This document shows, in pieces, positions 14,938 to 35,093 of a DNA stretch of 64,000 nt. The stretch covers positions 2,406,336 to 2,470,335 of the forward strand of contig NC_019695.1 of the NCBI RefSeq assembly GCF_000317125.1, written 5' to 3'. Each line of letters opens with the position of its first letter. Position 1 is the first letter of the stretch. Source of the DNA: Chroococcidiopsis thermalis PCC 7203 (GTDB lineage: Bacteria; Cyanobacteriota; Cyanobacteriia; Cyanobacteriales; Chroococcidiopsidaceae). The position numbers were made by a program, and so were the translations under genes. Below the pieces are notes generated by a model. The model saw nothing but the letters and a program-made list of their open reading frames with translations. It had not been told where the DNA came from and made no database searches.

Positions 14938-15552
14938 TTAACCCTCTGTCCGGTGCTTGGAAATCACTTCAGATTCCAATTGTTGAAGGTCGTCCTTAGT
15001 ATCGATATCATGTGGATTACCGATGCGATCGCAACTGACTTCCACAACTGAGTAAACTCGCATCAACTGTCTGGCTCCTTCGTCCCCCTCAAGTTTCATG
15101 GCATCAAACCACAACGAACGAGCCAGGAGGACGGGGTTGCGCCGAGATCCTTCATAGGTAGCTACAACAAAAGAAGCTCCTTCATGGTATGCAGCTACGA
15201 GACGACGATAACAAGCAGCCGTCACGAATGGTTGGTCGGCAAGTCCAATGCAGAGAGCATCAATAGATTTATTCGGCTCTAACATCCACAGAGCTTGTTT
15301 TAGACTTGAAGCAATTCCACTTTGCCATTGTAGGTTATGTACTATACTCACTCCTGGTAAGGCTGCGGCGGCTACTTGCTGGGAATTGTAACCGACGACA
15401 AGTAAAATTGGGGCAAGACCGCTATCATCAGCAGCCTTAAGAGCATAGGAAACTAGCGATCGCCCCCTAAACATTGCTAAAGGTTTAGGAAAATTCCCGC
15501 CAAACCGAGAACCTCTACCAGCAGCAAGGATAGCAATAGCAACCTGTCCCAT
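14938..15552 (-). CDS. MocA/MobA-like molybdopterin nucleotidyltransferase family protein
   Basis: About 204 residues. The N terminus AIAILAAGRGSRFGGNFPKPL is the NTP-transferase loop, followed by LADQPFVT, RRNPVLLARSLW and GDEGARQLM, as in MocA, which makes molybdopterin cytosine dinucleotide for xanthine-dehydrogenase-type enzymes. The frame stays open upstream to 15615, which would overlap XdhC; ATG at 15552 (MGQVAIAIL) starts just before the conserved loop and 4 bp after the XdhC stop, so I chose it. Context next to XdhC and a CoxS-type protein supports a molybdenum-cofactor role. Other sugar-nucleotidyltransferase roles are less likely. Confidence 0.82.
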   Translation of the reverse strand: MGQVAIAILAAGRGSRFGGNFPKPLAMFRGRSLVSYALKAADDSGLAPILLVVGYNSQQVAAAALPGVSIVHNLQWQSGIASSLKQALWMLEPNKSIDALCIGLADQPFVTAACYRRLVAAYHEGASFVVATYEGSRRNPVLLARSLWFDAMKLEGDEGARQLMRVYSVVEVSCDRIGNPHDIDTKDDLQQLESEVISKHRTEG

Positions 15553-15556
15553 GTGC

Positions 15557-16672
15557 TTACTTGACGTGAATTGATTTTTGTTGGGTCTGAGAAAGCCTAC
15601 AGCCGCTACGTCCACTCTTAAGCGCGATAACTTCAGCCATAATTGACACAGCCGTCTCTTCTAAAGAGTTAGCACCAATGTCTAGCCCAATTGGGGCGCA
15701 AATCCGAGCCAGTTCAGTTTCAGTGAGTCCAGCTTCCTTCAGACGACGAATTCGATCTGCGGTGGCTTTGCGGCTTCCCATCGCGCCAATGTAAGCTGCT
15801 GGTGTTCGTACTGCGGCTATGAGCGCAGGAACATCAAACTTAGGATCGTGAGTGAGTACGGTAATAATGGTACGAGCGTCTATCTGGATGCTTTGGAGAT
15901 ACTGACCGGGCGAGTTCACCACGATCTCGTCAGCTTCAGGAAAGCGTGCTGGTGTGGCAAAGCGAGACCGAGCGTCACATACGGTTATTCGGTAGCCTAA
16001 TATCTTACCTAGCTTGCAAAGCGATCGCGCAAAATCAACAGCCCCGATCGCAATGAAGTGCGGTTGGGGTACAAAGGACTCAATAAAAATTGCCACATCC
16101 GCCTGCCCGCATTCGCCGTTAGCACCGTAGTAGCTCAAGTTTTTCCATCCCTGAGTTAACATCCTTTGAGTGTTACGAGACACCACCTGGTCTAGCTCTG
16201 CGTTGCCAAGAGAACCAGCGATCGCACCGCGATCGGTCACTAACATCTTAGCTCCAACATTCGTCCCCTCAACTAACGTACAGAGTGCTATAGGCTGCTC
16301 TGATGCTTTGCAGATGGCATCAAAGACAAAATTCATTGGCAGCTCGCTCCCAAAGCACTTTTGCATGAGGGGTTCCACGAAAACTTGAATAGTGCCTCCA
16401 CAGGTCAAACCAACCACAAAGCCCAGTTCGTCAGCCACTCCATATGTTAATAGCCGTGGCTGATTCAGCGCGATCGCTGCTAGTGCTTCCTCAACGACTG
16501 CTCCTTCAACGCACCCGCCACTGATAGAACCAGCGACCTCGCCGCTACTCGATACAGCCATGACAGCTCCAGGTTCTCTGGGACTTGAGCCTTGAGTGCA
16601 GACAACAGTTGCTAGTGCCACAGAGTCACCCTGATTCCACCAGCGTTTGATATCAGCAACAACGTTCCTCAT
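15557..16672 (-). CDS. XdhC/CoxI family molybdenum-cofactor insertion and maturation protein
   Basis: A 371-residue XdhC-type chaperone that handles molybdenum cofactor, including sulfuration and insertion, for xanthine-dehydrogenase-family enzymes. The N-terminal domain has ATVVCTQGSSPREPGAVM and GSISGGCVEGAV (about 22-60); the C-terminal Rossmann domain has FIAIGAVDFARSLCKLGKILGYRITVCDARSRF and YIGAMGSRKATADRIRRL. The usual GAG of the Rossmann loop reads IGAVDF. Its start overlaps the CoxS-type gene's stop by 4 bp (ATGA). No large molybdoenzyme subunit is nearby, so its client must be encoded elsewhere or the operon is incomplete. Confidence 0.9.
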   Translation of the reverse strand: MRNVVADIKRWWNQGDSVALATVVCTQGSSPREPGAVMAVSSSGEVAGSISGGCVEGAVVEEALAAIALNQPRLLTYGVADELGFVVGLTCGGTIQVFVEPLMQKCFGSELPMNFVFDAICKASEQPIALCTLVEGTNVGAKMLVTDRGAIAGSLGNAELDQVVSRNTQRMLTQGWKNLSYYGANGECGQADVAIFIESFVPQPHFIAIGAVDFARSLCKLGKILGYRITVCDARSRFATPARFPEADEIVVNSPGQYLQSIQIDARTIITVLTHDPKFDVPALIAAVRTPAAYIGAMGSRKATADRIRRLKEAGLTETELARICAPIGLDIGANSLEETAVSIMAEVIALKSGRSGCRLSQTQQKSIHVK

Positions 16673-17253
16673 TGACTTTTTGCCTTTAGGGGTACATTAG
16701 CTGTTCGCGCAATTGGTAAACATTCATGAGCCGTTACGGTTTCCGGCTTAGCTATTACAGATTCCATCTGCATTTTTTCTACAGCATTTTTTTCTACAGC
16801 ATAATGTACGGCGCGAACGGCGTTTGGATAGACACCACAGCGGCAAAAGACACCATCCAGCCAATCTCGAATTTCTGCTTCGCTAGGTTTAGGGTTATTT
16901 TGTAATAAATCCATGAGTGACATAATCATAGCTGGCGTGCAGTAACCGCACTGTAGCCCGTGCATGTTCCAGAAACTTTCTTGCAATGCACTAAGTTGAC
17001 CGTTTTGAGCAACGCCTTCAATCGTCATGACATTGCTACCATCAGCTTGAACTGCTAAGACTGTACAGCTTTTGACTGATACGCCATTCAGCATTACTGT
17101 ACAAGCACCACACTGTCCCGTATCGCAGCCACTCTTTGTTCCCGTTAGATTTAGAATATCGCGGAGAAAATCTACAAGTAGCAACCGTGGCTCAACATCT
17201 GTCGTATACTGTTTGCCGTTGACTTTGATGACAGTTTGCATAAGATTTTGCAT
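16669..17253 (-). CDS. CoxS/IorA-type 2Fe-2S subunit of a molybdenum hydroxylase
   Basis: A two-cluster ferredoxin-like small subunit, as in aerobic CO dehydrogenase, xanthine dehydrogenase and isoquinoline oxidoreductase. The plant-type cluster motif GCDTGQCGACTV and a following Cys are present, as is the second-cluster domain LQCGYCTPAMIMS and VFCRCGVYPN. It passes electrons away from a molybdenum site. The frame is open to 17316, but MQNLMQTVIKVNG at 17253 or MQTVIKVNG at 17241 is the natural start; no strong ribosome site separates them. A 40-residue C-terminal extension rich in Glu, Ala and Val follows the conserved domain. No large or FAD subunit is in the window. Confidence 0.88.
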   Translation of the reverse strand: MQNLMQTVIKVNGKQYTTDVEPRLLLVDFLRDILNLTGTKSGCDTGQCGACTVMLNGVSVKSCTVLAVQADGSNVMTIEGVAQNGQLSALQESFWNMHGLQCGYCTPAMIMSLMDLLQNNPKPSEAEIRDWLDGVFCRCGVYPNAVRAVHYAVEKNAVEKMQMESVIAKPETVTAHECLPIARTANVPLKAKSQ

Positions 17254-17329
17254 AAAATTGTTTTTCTGAAAATGTGTTTTTCTAAAAATGAGACGCAGAA
17301 GCGATCGACATAGCAAAATAGCTTTTCGT

Positions 17330-18043
17330 TTAGCTAACTATCCCTGTCACCGTGTTCTTTGCTGGCTGCCGGAAACGTAAATTAACCAACCACCACCACC
17401 ATGTATGGGATACTTGCCACCACTGTCCCATCGTAGAATTTTCGTCTAGTTGATTAACTTGCGGGTTTTTAGGTAGTACAAAATAAATGAGATTTGAAGT
17501 TTCCTGTAGGGATTGAATCTTCAAATTGGGAGGAAAGACTGCTCCCATTTCTGCTTCAAACGTAGCTTTTGGATTAGATGTAATTCTCTCATGGAAAGCC
17601 TCATTTGTCCAAATACGAGCGATCCACAATGCTTGCAAGCTCTCTCTGTAAGCTCTGGCTTTCTCAGCACCGCAAAGATAATAGTATGTCGTCCACCAAG
17701 TATGACCCAACATCCACCAAGTAGCAAGTTGTTCGTACCGATACCATTGCTCTTCTGCTCGCGGAGTTGCAGGAATCACAAAGTAAAATGTATCCTCTGG
17801 TTCCTCTAAAACTCTAACTTCTACGTTGGCGGGAAATGTAATATCCGATTCCCGTTCAAAAACGGCTTTTGGATCGATCAGTATTTCTTGCTTAAGTAAT
17901 TCATCATGCCAAACACGGTCAATTAGTCGTGCTTGTAAAGCTTCGTAGTAAGGTCCAAAATCTGTAACATTTACATTCGACCACAATGTTCTAACTTGAG
18001 GGAATTGAGTTAGAATATCTGTAAATTTAGTACTTGCTTTCAT
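17330..18043 (-). CDS. Tandem NHLP-domain protein with WWxxxHTWW repeats (possible RiPP precursor or scaffold)
   Basis: A 237-residue protein made of two similar units. Each unit has a nitrile-hydratase-alpha-leader-like (NHLP) domain: residues about 32-94 with LIDRVWHDELLKQEILIDPK and VRVLEEPEDTFYFVIP, and 132-194 with WIARIWTNEAFHERITSNPK and LQETSNLIYFVLP. Each is followed after 14-16 residues by a Trp/His cluster, WWMLGHTWW (109-117) and WWQVSHTWWWW (208-218). NHLP domains are known as leader regions of proteusin-type RiPP precursors. There is no GG cleavage motif and no obvious modification enzyme next door. It lies just upstream of the CoxS-type gene, probably in one operon. The function is not known. 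Confidence 0.7.
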   Translation of the reverse strand: MKASTKFTDILTQFPQVRTLWSNVNVTDFGPYYEALQARLIDRVWHDELLKQEILIDPKAVFERESDITFPANVEVRVLEEPEDTFYFVIPATPRAEEQWYRYEQLATWWMLGHTWWTTYYYLCGAEKARAYRESLQALWIARIWTNEAFHERITSNPKATFEAEMGAVFPPNLKIQSLQETSNLIYFVLPKNPQVNQLDENSTMGQWWQVSHTWWWWLVNLRFRQPAKNTVTGIVS

Positions 18044-18415: not shown

Positions 18416-19141
18416 CTACACTGGCTGAGCTACTGGTACAGCTAAAAGTCTAGGAATCAGAATATTACCTGGTTGCTCTAGAATAAATCGAACGCAACGA
18501 GCCACATCCTCACTTTGAAGTGGGTTTGGCACCAGCTCGTCATAACCTTTCATCCCACGCGATTTCCAAGAGTCGTACAGGTTAGTAGCAACTGCACCAG
18601 GCTCAACTGTGGCAACACCAATACCAGAACCAGCCAACTCCATCCGCAAGGAATCAGTAAAAGCTTCTAAGGCGTGTTTAGTACCGTCATAAACCGCTAA
18701 CTTGGGAGTCGTTTTCAGTCCAGAAATACTAGACATATTGATGATATAGCCACTACCCTGTTGCTTAAAATGCCGCAGTGCTACGTAGCTCATTCGCACT
18801 ACAGCCTCAAAATTAATCCGAATCATTTTACACAAAGCTTCGATGTCTGCATCCTCAATTGACATCATATGCATTACACCTGCGTTGTTGATGACAACAT
18901 CCAGACGACCCAATTTTTCTAAAGCTACATCAACCAAGTGTTGTGGCAATTCAGAATCAGTTATCTCTCCTGGTACGATCGCCGTTTCATTATTCATTTG
19001 AGCGGCGAGTTCTGCCAGTTTTTCTGGCGATCGCGCTGTAATCAACAGCTTCATCCCCGCCGCATCTAAACTCTTGGCGATCGCCGCTCCAATGCCGCTA
19101 CTGGCTCCCGTAACAATTGCTACTTTATTTTGTAAATCCAT
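18416..19141 (-). CDS. Classical short-chain dehydrogenase/reductase (SDR)
   Basis: A 241-residue NAD(P)-dependent oxidoreductase. It has the cofactor loop TGASSGIGAAIA, the NNAG motif, the catalytic Ser in NMSSISGL and the YDGTK (YxxxK) pair, and full family length. The segment LITARSPEKL after the second strand has an Arg that favours NADP(H). Substrate unknown; similar enzymes act on alcohols, ketones or aldehydes. It lies about 200 bp downstream of the VOC gene in the same direction and probably belongs to the same metabolic block. Confidence 0.88.
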   Translation of the reverse strand: MDLQNKVAIVTGASSGIGAAIAKSLDAAGMKLLITARSPEKLAELAAQMNNETAIVPGEITDSELPQHLVDVALEKLGRLDVVINNAGVMHMMSIEDADIEALCKMIRINFEAVVRMSYVALRHFKQQGSGYIINMSSISGLKTTPKLAVYDGTKHALEAFTDSLRMELAGSGIGVATVEPGAVATNLYDSWKSRGMKGYDELVPNPLQSEDVARCVRFILEQPGNILIPRLLAVPVAQPV

Positions 19142-19349: not shown

Positions 19350-19805
19350 TCAGTAAATAGAAGCAACTTCTTCATTCGCCTCTAAAGACGGCGGATTATC
19401 CTGATCGGTGTATCCTTGACTAATTTCGATAATGTTACCGTTTGGATCGGTAATCCAAACCGATCGCCATCCACTGATAAACTCATCAAAGTTGAGCGGT
19501 CCTAGAGAAATTTTGGCATCCTTACCCATTTCTGCTAGCTTAGCATCGACATTATCGACCTGAAAGCCCAGGTGTCGCCAGCCTGGGTAGGCGGGTCCAT
19601 CGTTACGAATCTGGTAAGCAGGAGATTCTTCCTTTGCTTGAATCAGCTCAAGATACATATCACCCAATTTCAGAAACACAATCTGTTCCTTGCCAAGTGG
19701 TGCGACCCGAGCGCGTTGGAAGCCGAAATATTTCGTGTAAAATTTTTCAGTTGCAATTGGATCTTGGCAGCTGATTGCCATCTGAGAAAATTTGAGCCAA
19801 GCCAT
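19350..19805 (-). CDS. VOC (glyoxalase/bleomycin-resistance) superfamily protein
   Basis: A 151-residue protein with two beta-alpha-beta-beta-beta modules: MAWLKFSQMAISCQDPIATEKFYTKYFGF at the start and GWRHLGFQVDNVDAKL in the second half, ending with WITDPNGNIIEISQ, the usual metal-ligand Glu region. VOC enzymes include glyoxalase I, dioxygenases and epimerases, so the reaction cannot be stated. It follows the duplicated SnoaL-like gene by 36 bp on the same strand, which suggests joint transcription and a shared substrate. Confidence 0.85.
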   Translation of the reverse strand: MAWLKFSQMAISCQDPIATEKFYTKYFGFQRARVAPLGKEQIVFLKLGDMYLELIQAKEESPAYQIRNDGPAYPGWRHLGFQVDNVDAKLAEMGKDAKISLGPLNFDEFISGWRSVWITDPNGNIIEISQGYTDQDNPPSLEANEEVASIY

Positions 19806-19841
19806 AACTTAGATCCTTACTAAAGCTGGACAAAAACGTAT

Positions 19842-20660
19842 TTATGCGTATGACCCATCGGGATATTGAACGACACCAGCAAAGTGAACGGCAATTTTGC
19901 CATCACGCAATACCCAATTATCGTAGAAACTCATTTCACCAACTTCACCACTAGTGCTGTGAGTTTTGAGACTTTCTACCATCATCAGCGTATTCTCAGT
20001 CTCTGCCCACTGGTTGAGCGAGACTTCCAAATCTTCTAAACTGAAGATGCGGCTTTCAAAAAACTCCTTGAGCTGTTGTCGTCCACGGATGTAGAGCGGC
20101 TGGCGATTTTCAGTCAGGGTACTAATTAGTAGCAGATCCTCGGCATACTGGTCGAGCAATCCTTCGACATTCTTGGCTTTGATAAAACCAATATGCTCTT
20201 TATAGAGCTTACCTAAAGGAGATGCAGGAATTGCTCCGACCTTTCCTGCATTAGCATACGTGCTATCTGGATACTGAATGACTCCAGCAAAGTGAATAGC
20301 AATCTTACCATTTTGCAAATACCAATTGTCGTAGAATTCAACATTGCCGACCTCACCGCTAGTGCTGCGAGTTTTGAGACTTTCTACCATCATCAGCGTA
20401 TTCTCAGTCTCTGCCCACTGATTCAGCGAGACTTCCAAATCTTCTAAACTGAAGATGCGGCTTTCAAAAAATTCCTTGAGCTGCTGTCGCCCACGGATAT
20501 AGAGCGGCTGGCGATCTTCAGTTAGGGTACTAATTAGTAAAAGATCTTCGGCATACTGGTCGAGCAATCCTTCAACATTTTTTGCTTTAATGAAACCGAT
20601 ATGCTCTTTGTAGAGCTTGCTCATCGGAGACAATAGCAGTTGTTCCATTGGTGTTTTCAT
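19842..20660 (-). CDS. Duplicated SnoaL/NTF2-like protein
   Basis: A 272-residue protein made of two nearly identical NTF2-like folds, residues about 11-136 and 147-272, joined by a 10-residue linker. Both begin SPxxKLYKEHIGFIKAKNV and end HFAGVxQYPD; by eye only about 14 of 126 positions differ, mostly in the last third. The DNA is similarly conserved, so the duplication is recent or kept by gene conversion. SnoaL-like folds act as cyclases, isomerases or small-ligand binders and commonly form dimers, so the fusion may be a single-chain dimer. The closest neighbours are a VOC gene and another SnoaL-like gene. Confidence 0.82.
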   Translation of the reverse strand: MKTPMEQLLLSPMSKLYKEHIGFIKAKNVEGLLDQYAEDLLLISTLTEDRQPLYIRGRQQLKEFFESRIFSLEDLEVSLNQWAETENTLMMVESLKTRSTSGEVGNVEFYDNWYLQNGKIAIHFAGVIQYPDSTYANAGKVGAIPASPLGKLYKEHIGFIKAKNVEGLLDQYAEDLLLISTLTENRQPLYIRGRQQLKEFFESRIFSLEDLEVSLNQWAETENTLMMVESLKTHSTSGEVGEMSFYDNWVLRDGKIAVHFAGVVQYPDGSYA

Positions 20661-20722
20661 AGTAATCCTTTATGCAGGAGATGAGAACGCAAGCAAGTTT
20701 TAGGAACAGAGTATGGCTCAGA

Positions 20723-21100
20723 CTAAGCCCAAATCCAAAAACCAAAATGATAAGCAATTTTGCCGTCGCGCATCATCCAAGCATCTCCAGCATTCACTGA
20801 ACCAAGATCGTTATTGAAATTAGCCTGGAAGAAAATAGTATCTTCAGTCTCAGTAAAATCAAGCGACTTGAGATCGATATGACCGATCGCTTTCATGTAT
20901 TTATGAAAAAACTGTTTAATGTTTTCACGACCTTGAATTGTAATTGGTGCGGGCATGTCAGCAAAGCCGTTGAAATAGGTGATTAACACAGCGTCTTCCG
21001 TGTAATCTCTATCTACCATCTCATCGACTTTTCCGGCTGCGATCGTCTCTAGATGGGTATTGAAAAACTTGCGCCCAGGAGAAATTGTTGAAGTTACCAT
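20723..21100 (-). CDS. SnoaL/NTF2-like protein
   Basis: A 125-residue single-domain protein with the cone-like alpha+beta layout of the SnoaL family: an N-terminal helical part FFNTHLETIAAGKVDEMVDRDYTEDAVLITYFNG, then ITIQGRENIKQFFHKYMKAIG, and strands ending GDAWMMRDGKIAYHFGFW. It shares the ITIQGRENIKQFF and RDGKIAYHF pattern with the duplicated protein next to it, so the genes are probably paralogues. The catalytic residues of this family vary and I cannot assign a reaction. It lies about 60 bp upstream of the duplicated gene. Confidence 0.8.
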   Translation of the reverse strand: MVTSTISPGRKFFNTHLETIAAGKVDEMVDRDYTEDAVLITYFNGFADMPAPITIQGRENIKQFFHKYMKAIGHIDLKSLDFTETEDTIFFQANFNNDLGSVNAGDAWMMRDGKIAYHFGFWIWA

Positions 21101-21236
21101 TGTCTGACCTCTTTTGATTTGCAGTTAAACTGGATTGATGAAATAGTTCGAGAAATTATCTCTTATGACACTCTTCTATTGAAAATTCCACTTCCACCGA
21201 TCGCGGATGCTGATGATGGAAGTAGAAAATTTTGCC

Positions 21237-21686
21237 TTAAAGCCGAGCAGACCCCTCATAATAATCAAGAGAGTCTACAATATACGTCTCAATGACTGCT
21301 TTTCCTGTCAGAGGCGATCGCTGCACTACCCAAGTTTGGTAAGCATCTAGAGTAATCCGATCGCTTTTTGCTGCTGGTGGATTCCACACACTAGCCTCCC
21401 ATTTCACCACCACTTTGACATCAGCCTTATCTCCTTTGGGAGTCACTTGAACTTTTTTTAAGGTGTGAACTTCGTCGAAAAAAATACCAATCACGCGCTC
21501 GTACCAATCTTTAAATCCATCAAAGCCGTAGACAGTTGCTTCAGGAAAGCACATTTCTGAGCCTTGCTCAGCCAACATGGGGATATATTCCTCAAGTGGT
21601 GCGTGAACGTCTAACTTTGAATACCAATCCGCTGCTAATTGCTGTACTTCAACTTGAGATAGAGCTGCGATCTTGCTTAATGTCAT
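21237..21686 (-). CDS. SnoaL/NTF2-like protein
   Basis: A 149-residue NTF2-like protein. The segments QQLAADWYSKLDVHAPLEEYIPML, FDGFKDWYERVIGIFFDEVHTL and VKVVVKWEASVW fit the fold, with an Asp/His pair in LDVHAPLEEY. It is more distant from the two SnoaL-like proteins downstream, which resemble each other more. It lies 40 bp after the TPP-enzyme gene, so it is likely co-transcribed with it. Three SnoaL-like genes in a row beside a carboligase-type enzyme suggest that they act on its product, but this is inference. Confidence 0.78.
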   Translation of the reverse strand: MTLSKIAALSQVEVQQLAADWYSKLDVHAPLEEYIPMLAEQGSEMCFPEATVYGFDGFKDWYERVIGIFFDEVHTLKKVQVTPKGDKADVKVVVKWEASVWNPPAAKSDRITLDAYQTWVVQRSPLTGKAVIETYIVDSLDYYEGSARL

Positions 21687-21725: not shown

Positions 21726-23456
21726 CTATTGACCGCACTTAACACCAATTTTTGAGCCTGCAACCTCGTTGGTCAGTACTAAGTCAATTAAGAAGGGTCC
21801 ATTGTAAGCTAATGCTTTCTGGATGGCTGATTCGATCTCGTCAGGCTGTTCAACCCGTATAGACTGAACTCCCATAGCCCGCGCTAACTCATCAAAACGG
21901 ATGTCTGGATTGCCTATGGTGAAAGAAGTTGGAAAATCGTGTTCTGCAATTCCTCGTTCGCGCCAATATTGCATAATATTGAGCTTGAGTATTTGATAAC
22001 TGTGATTGTTGCAGATGACAAATTTAGCATCAATGTTGTGATGTGCAGCAGTCCACAATGCCTGAATGGTGTACATACTGCCACCGTCACCAGTGAAACC
22101 AATAACCGTCTTATCTGGATTAGCCAGCTTTAAACCAATTGCACCTGGAATACCAACACCAAGGGAACCACCCCGCGTTTGAAAATAATATCCCAAAGTT
22201 GTAGGGGGAATGTAACGACAAAGTTCTTCAGAGTTAGTGATTGCTTCATCGAAAATTACCGTATCTGGTGGTATATGCTGAGCCAAGTCTCGCGCAAAAC
22301 GCGACAGATGCAAAGGTACTGAGTCGCAGACAGCTCGATCGGACTCAAGCTGAGTTGTTAATTGCTGCTTTTTAGCTTCAGCTATCCGAATAGATCTTTG
22401 AAATGCTTCCTGCTGCTGTTCGGGAGTCATCATTGATTCCAAGGTTGTACCTAGAACTGCAAGGGTAGTTTTCGGATCGCTCATCAGCCCGAGATCTACT
22501 GGGAAATTTTTTGCAATCTCATAACCATTTAAATCAATGTGAATCACTTTTGCATTGGGAGCAAAAGCATCAGAGAGTACAGGAAAGACTTCAGGGAAAA
22601 CGTAAGTACCGCAAATTAACACTGCATCTGCTTGGGAGGTGATGCGGCGACTAACTTCGCCAAACATATGCCCGAGCAATCCTCCAAATAGAGGATGGGT
22701 AGCGCTCATGTTTGGTTCCGATGAATCTGCTCCCCATACTTGAGCGCCAATTAGTTCGGCAACGCGGATTAATTCAGCTTGAGCATCTGAAAAAGCCACG
22801 CCGTCACCTACCACAATTAAAGGCTTGGTTGCAGTAGCTAGTATACTTGCGGCTCGTTCGATCTGTTCTGGTTCGGGGGTGACTCGCGCGATTGGGAAAG
22901 AAGTTGGGATCGCTTCTTCTTCATTAGGAGCATCAAGGATATCCATTGGCAGGCTAACGAAGACAGGACCCATTGGTGGTGTACCAGCAATCTTAATTGC
23001 CCGACGCAAAACTCGTAAAAGAGAAGCAGGATCGACAACCCGCGTAGCCCATTTAGTCACGGGCTTGGCTATGCTCACAAGGTCAGATGCCATCTGAGCA
23101 TCCATTGCATCGTACATAATGCCTGCTTCACCAGCTAGCACGACTAGTGGCGCATGACCGCGCATCGCTTGGTACATCATGCCAATTCCATTTCCCAATC
23201 CAACACCACTGTGTAGTTGCACAATTGTTGGTTTTTTGGTGGCACGGGCATAGCCATCAGCCATACCTACTGCAATCGTCTCTTGCAAGGCAAAGACATA
23301 TTTGAATTCAGGCTCGTAGTGACTTAAAGCGTCCAGAAATCCCTGCTCGACTGTGCCAGGGTTGCCGAACATGTATTGTATGCCATCTGCAAGCAGTTGT
23401 TCTATAATCGCAAAGCGCCCATTTCTGTTAGCCATAATTTTCGTTTTCTTGGGCAT
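21726..23456 (-). CDS. Thiamine-pyrophosphate enzyme, benzoylformate decarboxylase/acetolactate synthase-like
   Basis: A 576-residue TPP-dependent decarboxylase or carboligase. The N-terminal domain has FGNPGTVEQGFLDAL and the conserved Glu in VFALQETIAVGMADGYARA, then LHSGVGLGNGIGMMYQA, close to the benzoylformate decarboxylase pattern. The central domain has PLIVVGDGV. The C-terminal domain has the cofactor motif GFTGDGGSMY followed about 25 residues later by NNHSYQILK. The start may be ATG at 23456 or the internal MANRNGRF at 23435; neither has a clear ribosome site. It is the likely core enzyme of this block, surrounded by two DJ-1-like and three SnoaL-like genes. Substrate unknown. Confidence 0.87.
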   Translation of the reverse strand: MPKKTKIMANRNGRFAIIEQLLADGIQYMFGNPGTVEQGFLDALSHYEPEFKYVFALQETIAVGMADGYARATKKPTIVQLHSGVGLGNGIGMMYQAMRGHAPLVVLAGEAGIMYDAMDAQMASDLVSIAKPVTKWATRVVDPASLLRVLRRAIKIAGTPPMGPVFVSLPMDILDAPNEEEAIPTSFPIARVTPEPEQIERAASILATATKPLIVVGDGVAFSDAQAELIRVAELIGAQVWGADSSEPNMSATHPLFGGLLGHMFGEVSRRITSQADAVLICGTYVFPEVFPVLSDAFAPNAKVIHIDLNGYEIAKNFPVDLGLMSDPKTTLAVLGTTLESMMTPEQQQEAFQRSIRIAEAKKQQLTTQLESDRAVCDSVPLHLSRFARDLAQHIPPDTVIFDEAITNSEELCRYIPPTTLGYYFQTRGGSLGVGIPGAIGLKLANPDKTVIGFTGDGGSMYTIQALWTAAHHNIDAKFVICNNHSYQILKLNIMQYWRERGIAEHDFPTSFTIGNPDIRFDELARAMGVQSIRVEQPDEIESAIQKALAYNGPFLIDLVLTNEVAGSKIGVKCGQ

Positions 23457-23514: not shown

Positions 23515-24342
23515 TTACCATCCATACCGTCTTAGCCCTTTCTCTAAGACTTCTACTAACTTCTGACCAGTTGTATAAGAATCTGCGGTAGACCGTCCCG
23601 TGATAAATGGATAGTCAACAATGACAGAAATCTCTCTGCCAAAATTACCGTGATATTCTCCGTCTGGAGCTGTTGCATCACTGAGGATATACTCTAAGGG
23701 ATAGGGAGGTGGACCCATATTAAGATCGCTACCAACAAACCCAGTTCCATCTAAGTAGTCATACTCCTTACAGTGACCTGTGACGTGTTTACCTCGAATA
23801 ATACTCTTGCGTTCTACCAGGTCGCGAGCAAAAGCCAGACAAGTTACACCATAGCACTCCGCAGCGATCGGTTTACCCAGCTTGTAAAAACCGAGAATCA
23901 GGTCATGGACTCTATGGTTGTTGACCAAATCGACGATTGGACCGCTACCACCTACGATCAAAAGAGCATCATATTGCACTAGATCCTGCTGCACCTCGTC
24001 GATCGCGTTGTTGTAGGCTTCCATTTCTCGCAGAAACTTTTCAGCACTCCAATAAGGGCGATCGGGCAACCATTCTGACAGAATGATCGGATTATCTAGC
24101 CGAGGATTCTTTGGATCTTCTAATCGCTTGACTTTCTCCGCCATCTCCTCAGATACGACTGCCCGACCTAAAGGAGGGTCAACGAAAGTAGGATCTAAGC
24201 TGGGAGGAAGCGCCACTGGTCTTTTACCAGTCGGAGTTGCAAAGTCAACTTGGTATCCTGCTGCATCAAAGGTTTCCAGAGGACCTACTAGTTCTTCACC
24301 CCAGTAGCCGTACTCTGACAGAATTGTCAGTATTTTTCTCAT
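23515..24342 (-). CDS. DJ-1/PfpI family protein, large (Hsp31-like) type
   Basis: A 275-residue member of the DJ-1/PfpI class-I amidotransferase-like superfamily. The nucleophile elbow is AAECYGVTCL with Cys 163, and the usual Glu lies in GEELVGPLETF (about 16-24). The length and the PYWSAEKFLREMEAYNNAIDEVQQDLVQYDALLIVGGSG insertion resemble the Hsp31/glyoxalase-III-like branch. Members act as glyoxalases, deglycases, chaperones or isonitrile hydratases. It follows another DJ-1/PfpI gene by 38 bp and precedes the TPP-enzyme gene by about 60 bp, so it may detoxify or process a reactive carbonyl made in this block. Confidence 0.84.
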   Translation of the reverse strand: MRKILTILSEYGYWGEELVGPLETFDAAGYQVDFATPTGKRPVALPPSLDPTFVDPPLGRAVVSEEMAEKVKRLEDPKNPRLDNPIILSEWLPDRPYWSAEKFLREMEAYNNAIDEVQQDLVQYDALLIVGGSGPIVDLVNNHRVHDLILGFYKLGKPIAAECYGVTCLAFARDLVERKSIIRGKHVTGHCKEYDYLDGTGFVGSDLNMGPPPYPLEYILSDATAPDGEYHGNFGREISVIVDYPFITGRSTADSYTTGQKLVEVLEKGLRRYGW

Positions 24343-24380
24343 AGAATCATCTCCTGCATGTGAATTTGTTTTTGAAATAG

Positions 24381-25064
24381 TTAGCTAGCAGCTCTTGCTC
24401 TTGCAAGGGGAGTAGCAGTTTTTTTGGTTGAGAAGAGATTTGTCGCTGAGGAAATTTGTTGGATTCGTTCGGTAATAGCGTCTATAAATGGATATACTTC
24501 GTGTCGCGATCGACCAGTAACCAGGTCGTCATCTACAACTACCCCTGTGGGTGAGGGTTCGTAAATTGCACCAGCATTCATGATGTCTGCAAGCACGACC
24601 TCATGACAGATCACTCGTCGTTCTTTAAGTAACTCTGGCATTGGTGTTAATATCCACAATCCGTGACAGAGCGCCCCTTTGACAATCTTAGGATTCGCCA
24701 TAGCTTTAGCATAAAATTGCACTGCTGGCGAAGTGCGAACTTGTTCGCCACCGATTGGTTGACCCTCAGGTGGTTGGAAGAAACGCAGACGCACGCTGGT
24801 GTAATTGGCAGACATGATCACAGCCGCGTAGTCGTTAAGATCGACATTTTGAAAATCGATATCCACTTCTATAGTTCGAGGTGTAGCACCTGTATCTTCA
24901 TCGCTGAAGAAGCGGACGCTTGGTTGACCCCAAAGCCTAGACATTAAATGCACCGTTGCCTTTAATTCCGAAAAGCGTTGCTGGTACGCTTCAATTTCTT
25001 CAGGAATGAATTCACTTTCGAGAAGAACCGCGATTTTCTTACCTCCAAGGGATCTGGGTATCAT
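24381..25064 (-). CDS. DJ-1/PfpI family protein
   Basis: A 227-residue DJ-1/PfpI protein. It shows the N-terminal KKIAVLLESEFIPEEIEAY, with the conserved Glu region, the strand YAAVIMSANYTS, and the nucleophile motif VKGALCHGLWIL with Cys 133 followed by His. A C-terminal tail with DDDLVTGRSRHEVYPFIDAITERI matches the family. It appears to be the first gene of the minus-strand block; a palindromic pair of 10-mers lies 90-160 bp upstream. The tail after residue 205 is Ser/Ala/Thr-rich and probably disordered. Confidence 0.84.
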   Translation of the reverse strand: MIPRSLGGKKIAVLLESEFIPEEIEAYQQRFSELKATVHLMSRLWGQPSVRFFSDEDTGATPRTIEVDIDFQNVDLNDYAAVIMSANYTSVRLRFFQPPEGQPIGGEQVRTSPAVQFYAKAMANPKIVKGALCHGLWILTPMPELLKERRVICHEVVLADIMNAGAIYEPSPTGVVVDDDLVTGRSRHEVYPFIDAITERIQQISSATNLFSTKKTATPLARARAAS

Positions 25065-27790: not shown

Positions 27791-28825
27791 TCAGTCATTT
27801 TTCTGAGTCGTAGTAATTGCTGGTTGACGAGGACGGATATCTAACCCCTGCACGCCTAGATCTAGGCGAAAAATACCTCCTTGACCTGCTTCTGTTTCAA
27901 CACCACCAGTCACGAAAAGACTTTTTAAATTCGCTCCACCAAAAGCGCAATTACTAGTAGTCAGATTACCGCTCGCATACCGACGAATTAACTGACCGCT
28001 GGAGTTCAGTACTTCTACATGGCGCGTACCGTAGTGAGCTATATAGAGATTTCCCGCAGCATCCAAGCATAAACCATCAGGCTTGTTATCGATTTCCCCT
28101 GGTTGTTTGACTGGTAAAGCAAATACTTTTTTTTCCCCCAGCTTTCCTGGCGCTAGCACATTGTAGACAGCTACTATATTTTTATTACTTTCACTGACAA
28201 AAAGACGTTGACGATCTGGGGTGAGGACAATTCCATTTGCAAAAGCAAGTCCGCTAGCCACCTGGTTGAGTTGACTTGCGGCATTGACGTAGTAGACTGC
28301 ACCATTGGGATTCTGAGGATTTGAGTCGCCAGAGTCGGTGAAATAAAAACCTCCTTGCGGATCGACAGTGATGTCATTGGGATATATTAATGGTTTGCCG
28401 TTAAACCGATCGGCAATTATTTTTAAGGGATTGCCATTAGCATCCAACTGTAGCACCGAATTTTTGGCAGCAACAATATGAGAACCATCGGGCAGAATTT
28501 TGTGTCCGTTAACTCCTTGAACCTTAGCCCAAATTCGACTGGAGCCATCAGGCGATACAATCGTAATCGTTCCTGCTTTAGTTTGGGAAAAGTAGAAATT
28601 GCCCTGGCGATCGAAAACAATTCCCTCACTATATTTGTCACTTTGCAGGACTTTTTCTGGTGAGATAGTATGCGCTGCTGGTAATGTTTCTTGTGGAGGA
28701 GTGACTATAGAGCGATCGGACACAAGATTCACATGCTCGGACACGGTAGATGGAGTGTCTAGCTTGGTATGACTGCAAGAAACCAACACTGTAGAGCTAA
28801 ACAAGAGTGCAATTATTTTCCGCAT
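27791..28825 (-). CDS. SMP-30/gluconolactonase-like beta-propeller lipoprotein
   Basis: A 344-residue protein with a lipoprotein signal: MRKIIALLFSSTVLVSC gives a lipobox LVSC with Cys 17. The rest is a six-bladed propeller of the SMP-30/LRE/gluconolactonase type, with SEGIVFDRQGNFYFSQT, IYPNDITVDPQGGFYFTDSG, FANGIVLTPDRQRLFVSES and KPDGLCLDAAGNLYIAHYG; these Asp/Asn/Glu positions are the usual metal site. It may hydrolyse a sugar lactone in the periplasm. The next gene upstream is a glucose-dehydrogenase-like SDR, which would make such a lactone, so the two may form a short pathway (inference). Confidence 0.87.
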   Translation of the reverse strand: MRKIIALLFSSTVLVSCSHTKLDTPSTVSEHVNLVSDRSIVTPPQETLPAAHTISPEKVLQSDKYSEGIVFDRQGNFYFSQTKAGTITIVSPDGSSRIWAKVQGVNGHKILPDGSHIVAAKNSVLQLDANGNPLKIIADRFNGKPLIYPNDITVDPQGGFYFTDSGDSNPQNPNGAVYYVNAASQLNQVASGLAFANGIVLTPDRQRLFVSESNKNIVAVYNVLAPGKLGEKKVFALPVKQPGEIDNKPDGLCLDAAGNLYIAHYGTRHVEVLNSSGQLIRRYASGNLTTSNCAFGGANLKSLFVTGGVETEAGQGGIFRLDLGVQGLDIRPRQPAITTTQKND

Positions 28826-33524: not shown

Positions 33525-35093
33525 CTATCCAAGATCTTCAGCAATGATTTTTTCTATATTGCGTTCTGCTAAAGCCGCAATAGTAAAGGAAGGATTTGTG
33601 ATAGCTGTATAGCCAGGAATCATGGCTCCATCCATGACATAAAGACGTTTATACCCAGCGACGCGCCCGTAGCGATCGCAGGCTTTTCCTAGTGTTGCTC
33701 CTCCTAGAGGATGCCCAGAGATGGAATTGATAAATGCTGATGTAGGCTGACTGGTAGAGGTCGTATTTTTCTCGTCAAGGATTTGAGCAGTTAACTTGAC
33801 AGCATCTAATTGAGCATTGTCTTGAGTCCAGTTCAAGCGGACAGAATCAGTAGATGCGTTATATGTAAATGTCCCTGTTTGTCGAGGTATACCTAAAGCG
33901 AGTAACTGTAGCGTACCATCAGCTGCATTTGCATCTGGAATATCCTCAAAAACAGTTGCACCAAGAGGGTTATCTAGGTGTTCCAAAACTACACATGCTG
34001 GTCCTCCCTTACCAGATACAGACGGCAATAAGTTGCTACGAGTTACAATCGCATCTCCATTACCTCCCCAATGTTTGCCAACTTCATCGTTTAATTTTGG
34101 TAATAAGCCCGTTGCTTTAGATCTAACTAAAAGCTTGGAAGTTCCAATAGAACCAGCTGCTAAAAATAAATAGCGACAGGTGAAAGACTTCTGAGCGACG
34201 ACTGCTCCTGATGTGTCAATTTGAGTACATAAAACTCTGTATCCATATTCAGGTACTTCAGTAATATCTGTAGCTAGATGTAATGTTAAAACATCTAATA
34301 ATCCAGTTTGCTCTGCCTGAAATAGGTAGTTACGATCCAGGCTATTTTTAGCCCCACTGTTAATGCCGTACCAGTGATTACCTAGAATTGCAGAAGGTAT
34401 CTTTGTTCCTTCTATTTCTTGGCGAATTATATTCCAATCTACTGCAAGATTATATGGATATGTAGCAAAGCCTGCTCTATTTCCTTGTTCGATTAATAAC
34501 CTAGCGCGATCGTAGTAAGGACTTGCCAAAATATCATCAGGAATGCTTGCGGGTTGTAGGAGCGATCGCACGCGCGGATAATAAACTGCATCCAATTCAT
34601 CATAGTCCACAACATCAGGAGAAAAAATACCGCTGAAGATTTCGCGCCTGGGTTGGTAAGTAATCGCGTTATAAACTAACGATCCACCTCCAAAGCCAGC
34701 CCCATGCAAGATATTAATTCCATTTTCCTGAGAAAAGTCTAGCACTCCTGTAAACGGATCGACGGGAACTCCATTCCATGTCGTATTACTTAACCAGGCA
34801 GCTCGACCATCTATTTGTTGAAAAGTAGCAAAAGTATTTCCATCATCTCTGATAGGCCAGCGGATTCCTCGCTCTATCATCAATGTTCTAATCCCAGCTT
34901 GTGTCAAGCGCAGAGCCGTAATCGCTCCGCCAAAACCGCTACCAAGGACTAGAGCTTCTACAGCTTCATCTGGAACATTTCGATCTTGGGCGCTCGCGCG
35001 ATAAATACTAGCTAGCGGACTTAGGGCAGCACTAGCAGAAATAAGTGCAGTAGTTTGCAGAAAGCGACGACGGCTGCGAAACCTATTCTTCAT
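33525..35093 (-). CDS. GMC-type FAD oxidoreductase, cholesterol-oxidase-like, Tat-exported
   Basis: A 522-residue flavoprotein. The N terminus RSRRRFLQTTALISASAAL is a twin-arginine signal. The FAD loop is ALVLGSGFGGAITALRL, followed by GIRTLMIERG; LHGAGFGGGSLVYNAI and the C-terminal GHPLGGATLGKACDRYG...VMDGAMIPG..ITNPSFTIAALAER match the cholesterol oxidase branch of the GMC family, with the catalytic His in GHPLGG. It probably oxidises an alcohol in the periplasm. It is the first gene of a minus-strand run whose later members are the GH63-like hydrolase, aquaporin and SDR. A sterol substrate is not implied. Confidence 0.88.
   Translation of the reverse strand: MKNRFRSRRRFLQTTALISASAALSPLASIYRASAQDRNVPDEAVEALVLGSGFGGAITALRLTQAGIRTLMIERGIRWPIRDDGNTFATFQQIDGRAAWLSNTTWNGVPVDPFTGVLDFSQENGINILHGAGFGGGSLVYNAITYQPRREIFSGIFSPDVVDYDELDAVYYPRVRSLLQPASIPDDILASPYYDRARLLIEQGNRAGFATYPYNLAVDWNIIRQEIEGTKIPSAILGNHWYGINSGAKNSLDRNYLFQAEQTGLLDVLTLHLATDITEVPEYGYRVLCTQIDTSGAVVAQKSFTCRYLFLAAGSIGTSKLLVRSKATGLLPKLNDEVGKHWGGNGDAIVTRSNLLPSVSGKGGPACVVLEHLDNPLGATVFEDIPDANAADGTLQLLALGIPRQTGTFTYNASTDSVRLNWTQDNAQLDAVKLTAQILDEKNTTSTSQPTSAFINSISGHPLGGATLGKACDRYGRVAGYKRLYVMDGAMIPGYTAITNPSFTIAALAERNIEKIIAEDLG

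Follow-up and report, generated by a model that had tools for sequence, protein, structure and literature searches.

The window analysed here, a stretch of 64,000 nucleotides from Chroococcidiopsis thermalis PCC 7203, encodes on its minus strand a 237-aa protein (17330..18043) with two NHLP (leader-fold) units, as delineated by TIGR03793, the Pfam NHase_alpha family and an alignment with seven full-length relatives. NHLP unit 1 (residues 35-97; 17753..17941, minus strand) is a TIGR03793 match with three helices and two strands in the AlphaFold secondary structure. It is followed by the first Trp-rich linker (residues 98-133; 17645..17752, minus strand), which contains WWMLGHTWW and stands out by a predicted helix and its Wimley-White sum. 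NHLP unit 2 (residues 134-195; 17459..17644, minus strand), located by TIGR03793 and AlphaFold models, precedes a Trp-rich C-terminal region of predicted helix and tail (residues 196-237; 17333..17458, minus strand), which contains WWQVSHTWWWW, is characterized by its dN/dS, invariant residues and helix prediction, and occupies the position that the core has in RiPP precursors.

Two NHLP leader-like domains in one chain, as the original prediction had it, were recovered by profile searches. The whole protein scores 102.3 bits against TIGR03793 in two matched stretches (cut-off 50.9), and in the genome scan with this model the stretches separately reach 55.6 and 50.9 bits, so that both units attain the cut-off; this ORF accounts for the sole NHLP matches (E up to 0.001) in the 6.69 Mb genome. 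Aligned with each other, the two halves share 38% identity across 86 residues (two-sequence comparison, E 2e-22). The Pfam NHase_alpha match has 42.9 bits (gathering score 27.2), and the best PDB sequence match is the proteusin precursor leader 8tb1 (E 2.3e-5), with nitrile hydratase alpha chains next. These HMM and PDB sequence matches, with which the predicted fold agrees, speak against the outcome contemplated in the prediction that neither half would be related to NHLP or nitrile hydratase alpha proteins. A promoter and terminator scan gave a result near that of shuffled sequence.

The neighbouring genes described here share the minus strand. A short-chain dehydrogenase (SDR) is encoded at 18416..19141. 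The gene for a 2Fe-2S subunit of the molybdenum aldehyde oxidoreductase type (16669..17316; glyceraldDH_gamma 223.9 bits, under the cut-off of 290) begins 13 bases downstream of the double-NHLP gene as called with its long TTG start, and is accompanied by an XdhC-family aldehyde oxidoreductase maturation factor (15557..16672; NF045664 201.3 bits, under the cut-off of 350) and a MobA-like nucleotidyltransferase (14938..15615; PF12804). A cluster shared with relatives, as judged from domain matches and the relatives' loci, includes a VOC protein with SnoaL-type proteins (19350..21686), a thiamine-diphosphate (TPP) enzyme (21726..23456; 79% in loci L031 and L033, 63% in L083) and two DJ-1/PfpI-type proteins (23515..25064). 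An SMP-30/gluconolactonase-like protein (27791..28825; PF08450) and a cholesterol-oxidase-like GMC oxidoreductase (33525..35093; PDB 4rek, 2e-90) are also present. The GMC gene is 15.5 kb from the double-NHLP gene, inside a shared gene set of malQ, the DJ-1 pair, the TPP enzyme, SnoaL proteins, the gluconolactonase-like protein, a sugar dehydrogenase, an aquaporin and a glycosidase. Its product scores 123.8 bits against the cholesterol oxidase equivalog model NF058674, far below the cut-off of 850, and starts with a twin-Arg (Tat-like) sequence, read by eye, that is also present in the 98% identical copy of genome G506.

At 19842-20660 (minus strand) two near-identical SnoaL-like units are fused, with the same fused length in Nostoc sp. 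C052 and G477; G506 holds only one unit (136 aa), the other having probably been lost there. In the G506 cluster the ThiJ-like gene is in two pieces, with about 4.8 kb of other sequence between them (L068:6665-12344). The window genome also contains a paralogous cluster (L087, G000:C1:5100000-5117000) of ThiJ-like, TPP, GMC, DJ-1, glgX and AGE-epimerase-like genes, which has no NHLP gene.

Relatives of the protein and selection on its tail

Among 386 genomes of the phylum, 12 had any match and one contained a further full-length relative (G278, 66%), and a plasmid search found a relative in Nostoc sp. C052 (64%) among 5 records. An alignment-based scan of genome contigs identified relatives in Desmonostoc geniculatum, Nostoc calcicola FACHB-3891 and Nostoc sp. 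CHAB 5824, whereas the scan of genome contigs with a single-protein query found none. In the order, 30 of 388 genomes have a match at E up to 1e-10, and six of the 388 carry the full-length protein (the window genome, G477, G506, G278, G643 and G390). With the Desmonostoc geniculatum and N. calcicola proteins counted as one with those of G278 and G643, eight distinct proteins were aligned. Among the remaining matches, those read comprise single NHLP domains, a nitrile hydratase alpha ORF (L013) and double-NHLP proteins of a different kind. G477, G506, G390 and G278 likewise have no NHLP match outside the double protein, and G643 has two further NHLP ORFs besides it. One 391-aa ORF (L066, G556:C212:40354-40611) combines an N-terminal cyclic-nucleotide-binding-like domain, recognized by eye, with a near-C-terminal NHLP leader carrying LSEESLDAVSGG; a 403-aa frame in G452 (L060) may resemble it.

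The tail of the double-NHLP protein is under purifying selection. Overall dN/dS is 0.13-0.21 in the three same-genus pairs: 0.131 and 0.133 for the window gene against its two same-genus copies (tail 0.064 and 0.122; linker 0.075 and 0), and 0.213 between these two copies (tail 0.186, linker 0.315). For three Nostoc pairs the overall ratio is 0.11-0.14; a fourth, G278 against N. calcicola, has 0.275, a value resting on very few changes. The tail of the window protein is 93% identical to that of each same-genus relative. At long range the Trp regions change more than the NHLP units, with 34% identity in the linker, 30% in the tail and 67% in unit 1 for the window protein against G390, and 57% in the tail and 76% in unit 1 against N. 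calcicola. That the exit motif and core are missing might point to a former RiPP precursor now in decay; given these ratios and reading frames that are unbroken in all eight full-length proteins, we regard such decay as hardly credible.

In a domain tree of only 64 columns each half of the family forms a group (96/94 and 95/97) and the two halves group together (89/83), which weakly suggests that the duplication in this family was separate from that of other double-NHLP proteins.

Features of RiPP precursors

In name and annotation, NHLP domains count as RiPP leaders. A proteusin leader is described as a folded part of three helices and two strands, after which come a proline-rich stretch, a short LxxxxL helix and then GlyGly (PMC10858898), and GlyGly with a hypervariable core belongs to the first description of the NHLP family (PMC2887384). 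The window protein resembles the proteusin precursors of TIGR03793 in its profile scores, its predicted helix-helix-helix-strand-strand order and the sequence match to 8tb1, although structural overlay on 8tb1 is weak (Z 2.9 and 4.9 for two models), and it differs from them in having two units with a Trp-rich stretch after each, in place of the LxxxxL helix, GlyGly and variable core. A loose LxxxxL plus Gly-(Gly/Ala/Ser) pattern was found in none of the eight double-NHLP proteins, compared with 22 of 24 ordinary NHLP ORFs; the control comprised 24 of 49 loci, namely NHLP frames read on the plus strand of the locus, L006 coinciding with L050 and L007 with L058. The pattern is loose enough that 5 of the 22 control matches fall past the exit, yet a GG exit is visible in those five. 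The C052 protein has GG at 125 and lacks the LxxxxL motif. None of the eight full-length proteins has a Cys/Ser/Thr-rich variable core (1-2 Cys per whole protein), and the low tail dN/dS among same-genus copies argues that the tail is not a hypervariable core.

The original prediction had noted that no RiPP maturase is adjacent, and the search extends this observation: none occurs among the scanned neighbours, and profile searches of the whole window genome gave no match to LanM or YcaO. The TIGR03796 exporter model gave 77 matches in the genome, none of them over the cut-off (best 575.8 bits against 853.3), and it also matches below the cut-off in all 14 control genomes. As far as these models go, the genome differs from NHLP/proteusin systems in having no LanM, no YcaO and no exporter above the TIGR03796 cut-off.

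Doubling as such is not novel and was set aside as the distinguishing feature. Of four further double-NHLP proteins identified, three have Cys-containing tails and one adjoins a partial LanM ORF. The protein of L072 (G560), which lacks a Cys-rich tail, adjoins a LanM ORF of 539 bits that covers only positions 2-519 of 932; that of L073 (G627) has a Cys-containing tail and adjoins a LanM ORF (938 bits) and a lasso_biosyn_B2-type protein; and L093 (G643) encodes two double-NHLP proteins with the exit LSDxELELVAGG and Cys-rich tails. From their sequences or surroundings these look like true RiPP precursors. They share with the window protein two NHLP units per chain and differ from it in the LanM neighbours (L072, L073), the Cys-containing tails (L073, L093) and the GlyGly exit (L093). 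At L093:294-1839 the two double-NHLP ORFs are followed by an ORF that, by eye, resembles a phytanoyl-CoA-dioxygenase-type protein. Fused pairs have also been reported for the related NHLP-Burk family (TIGR03795; BMA_0021/0022), again with two leader-like units per chain (PMC2887384). Those proteins are TOMM precursors, and the window protein scores 31.8 bits against TIGR03795 (cut-off 41). The earlier remark that no described protein with this layout was known should therefore be narrowed: it is the coreless, Trp-rich double-NHLP form outside RiPP clusters that is unusual. In the parts of the literature consulted on NHLP domains and proteusins, cyanobacterial GMC enzymes and tandem leaders, we found no description of a coreless double-NHLP protein.

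Taken together, the double-NHLP protein is very probably not a RiPP precursor. It would be one if its Trp/His tail served as the core and were modified by a distant maturase or by an oxidoreductase of the cluster. The TIGR03793 score above cut-off, the LanM genes adjoining other double-NHLP proteins, the radical SAM model and ABC exporter matches in the genome (all under their cut-offs) and the reported distance that may separate RiPP precursors from their maturases (PMC2887384) are compatible with this idea, which we nevertheless consider decidedly improbable when LxxxxL-GlyGly is missing in 8/8 proteins, the tail is conserved and not hypervariable, and the genome lacks LanM, YcaO and an above-cut-off TIGR03796 exporter among the models searched.

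Trp-rich stretches and predicted fold

The predicted WWxxxHTWW cluster after each unit is present at near-equal spacing, 18 and 17 residues past the P of VIP/VLP, the proline of the final strand (residues 109-117 and 208-216). Even the looser WWxxxHxWW occurred twice in none of 200,000 composition-preserving shuffles, and at least once in 7, so the doubled cluster is not a product of chance. Of the eight aligned proteins, only the three from the same genus retain the exact double WWxxxHTWW; W109, W110, T115, W208, W209, H213, W217 and W218 are invariant in all eight.

In the AlphaFold model of the window protein the linker forms one helix (96-124, with pLDDT under 50 at 97-112) and the tail another (205-224, with pLDDT under 50 from 217). 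The model of the Desmonostoc protein divides the first Trp stretch into three helices (98-109, 111-115 and 118-125) and has the second at 206-224. Confidence is low in both models (mean pLDDT 59.6 for the window protein, 64.1 for Desmonostoc), the Trp parts being among the least certain. As modelled, the Trp-rich stretch is probably helical and takes the place of the maturase-docking helix of leaders. Wimley-White interfacial sums peak in the two Trp stretches (11.5 at 106-124, and 9.6), where they are the maxima of the chain, and Kyte-Doolittle values of both remain low. High interfacial sums combined with low Kyte-Doolittle values suggest that these stretches bind an interface or a partner and are not membrane-spanning helices.

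Structure comparison relates the predicted body to the nitrile hydratase alpha chain. The top Foldseek match of the model is nitrile hydratase alpha (E 1.4e-4, TM 0.41/0.46, rmsd 10.9). VIA-align superimposes the window model on 4zgj with Z 8.7 (3.2 A, 124 residues, model positions 32-212) and the second model on nitrile hydratase alpha with Z 8.3 (3.6 A, 123 residues), compared with Z of 3.3 or less for unrelated rows; a Z near 8 can, by the program's own note, reflect a common arrangement. The structure prediction proposed as a check on the leader-like fold accordingly yields, for models of low confidence, an overlay that covers both units. In a profile comparison the alignment spans both units and both halves of a nitrile hydratase alpha ORF, with a probability of 79%. 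That nitrile hydratase alpha is itself an NHLP tandem was considered but found no support: BLAST of the two halves of such an ORF aligned 4 residues (E 2.2).

Alternatively, the protein may be a metal-free relative of nitrile hydratase alpha (PF02979, TIGR01323), with a small substrate as its ligand or with a metallochaperone-like function as a subunit. The Pfam score above the gathering score, the overlays across both units and the profile alignment fit such a role. We rate it as quite unlikely, however: the TIGR01323 score is 39.1 bits against a cut-off of 249.85, the CxxCSC metal-binding motif is absent from all eight proteins (1-2 Cys each, one in the window protein), no nitrile hydratase beta subunit occurs among the scanned ORFs of the window, Z values of this size can arise from a common arrangement, and the tree (89/83, 64 columns) weakly points to an NHLP unit that was duplicated separately.

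Gene neighbourhood and proposed role

A search of homologues for conserved gene neighbours, proposed with the original prediction, revealed conserved linkage. An SDR orthologue is adjacent to the double-NHLP gene or one gene off in 8/8 loci, on the same strand in each (upstream in 6, downstream in 2), and a cholesterol-oxidase-like GMC gene lies within about 30 kb in 8/8 loci. The immediate neighbours differ: the window's genus has 2Fe-2S/XdhC genes there, and three of the four Nostoc-group loci have GMC. All three loci of the window's genus share the order SDR, double-NHLP, 2Fe-2S, XdhC, MobA-like. The GMC gene directly follows the double-NHLP gene after 337 bases in Nostoc sp. C052, 355 in Desmonostoc and 585 in N. 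calcicola; CHAB 5824 has none directly after it, and one full-length and one short GMC ORF 6-8 kb upstream.

All six full-length carriers among the 388 genomes hold SDR and GMC on the contig of the protein, at distances of 0.3 to 29 kb, against a background of 13 genomes with SDR and 26 with the GMC enzyme (the three 388-genome samples of the order, for protein, SDR and GMC, were assumed to be the same draw). By genus, 3/3 with the double-NHLP protein hold SDR and GMC, compared with 9/149 and 17/149. The corresponding chance of linkage is about 0.0002 for SDR and 0.001 for GMC if independence is assumed, which genera and genomes do not have. Seven of the 13 genomes with SDR, and 20 of the 26 with GMC, lack the full-length protein, which is thus not essential to either; in G650 SDR and GMC are close together in a genome without any NHLP.

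A similar cluster in G229, a genome of another family, brings together MobA-like, XdhC, GMC (42%), 2Fe-2S (60%), TPP enzyme (63%) and ThiJ-like (57%) genes with three SnoaL-type ORFs. A bare NHLP domain of 62 aa (L083:16656-16844, minus strand; 67.5 bits), the only NHLP match of that genome, lies 2 kb beyond the cluster, separated from it by a 383-aa ORF, and has neither exit nor core. No SDR orthologue was found in G229 (best 30%). A search for the protein or small Trp-rich ORFs around 12 of the 36 GMC places (one being G506's own cluster) and all eight SDR places lacking the protein turned up nothing beyond the G229 NHLP and a 73-aa frame that overlaps the TPP gene.

The 2Fe-2S and XdhC genes call for a molybdenum large subunit. 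Of the two such genes in the window genome, the one at 3672584-3673333 and a second GMC gene at 3676694-3678169 are 3.4 kb apart, a pairing also found in G477 and G506, and in G229 the large-subunit gene is 13 kb from GMC. Since a large-subunit gene lies close to a GMC gene, an alcohol-to-aldehyde-to-acid route would fit this gene content.

The linkage to SDR and GMC could instead reflect shared transfer of a sugar-metabolism island in which the protein is a passenger with an unrelated role. The plasmid location of the locus in Nostoc sp. C052, the rearrangement of neighbours between genera and the occurrence of SDR and GMC without the protein are in line with this. The SDR gene, however, has stayed adjacent or one gene off on the same strand in 8/8 loci despite differing gene order, and a bare NHLP gene is found near the similar cluster of G229, and we consider the passenger explanation unlikely, if worth keeping in view.

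The original prediction had left a choice between a doubled precursor and a scaffold built on an adopted leader fold. The latter is by far the better fit, because LxxxxL-GlyGly and a variable core are missing, the tail is under selection, LanM and YcaO are absent and the oxidoreductase neighbourhood is conserved. We propose that the gene product is a folded, uncleaved protein of two NHLP units, in each of which a Trp-rich stretch, probably a helix, replaces the LxxxxL helix, the GlyGly site and the core. The two units together would rebuild a metal-free body resembling nitrile hydratase alpha, and the Trp helices would dock it to a membrane surface or to a hydrophobic groove of a partner enzyme. 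Such a protein may serve as a non-catalytic assembly or tethering factor for the surrounding alcohol/aldehyde oxidation system, the enzymes served being SDR, the cholesterol-oxidase-like GMC and the molybdenum aldehyde oxidoreductase. Because the GMC enzyme looks Tat-exported, it is not obvious that it would form a stable complex with the protein in the cytoplasm. To this co-option of the leader fold as an accessory protein, the positive reading with most support and one inferred from gene linkage, we assign a probability of slightly less than one half (about 0.45).

Mycofactocin is a peptide-derived redox cofactor system with a GMC enzyme, MftG, and SDRs. The window locus resembles it in linking a RiPP-related protein to a GMC oxidoreductase and an SDR, and differs in that the window GMC scores 40.5 bits against the MftG model (cut-off 400). 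The best match in the genome to the MftC-type mycofactocin radical SAM protein has 106.3 bits against a cut-off of 265, the 14 control genomes being under it as well, and on these scores membership in the mycofactocin system was rejected. In a far more speculative scenario, to which we give very little credence, the protein would be a redox partner whose invariant Trp/His cluster (W208, W209, H213, W217, W218) is modified into, or binds, a cofactor that shuttles electrons among SDR, GMC and the molybdenum enzymes. If true, it would be a whole-protein counterpart of mycofactocin-like cofactors, with the leader fold retained as a docking module.

This family bears on how NHLP proteins are classified. 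The relative in Nostoc sp. C052 (WP_179069833.1) is annotated automatically as a RiPP precursor; for the double-NHLP protein this usual label is probably wrong, and it would be corrected for such proteins. The role of the leader's structured part varies with the enzyme in published work, being reported as dispensable for the brominase SrpI (PMC10858898) and as needed for a YcaO enzyme (PMC12455567). In the present family the fold is retained with neither exit motif nor core, and is therefore separable from its RiPP function. A stand-alone, partner-linked NHLP protein would make the binding role of the fold itself testable.
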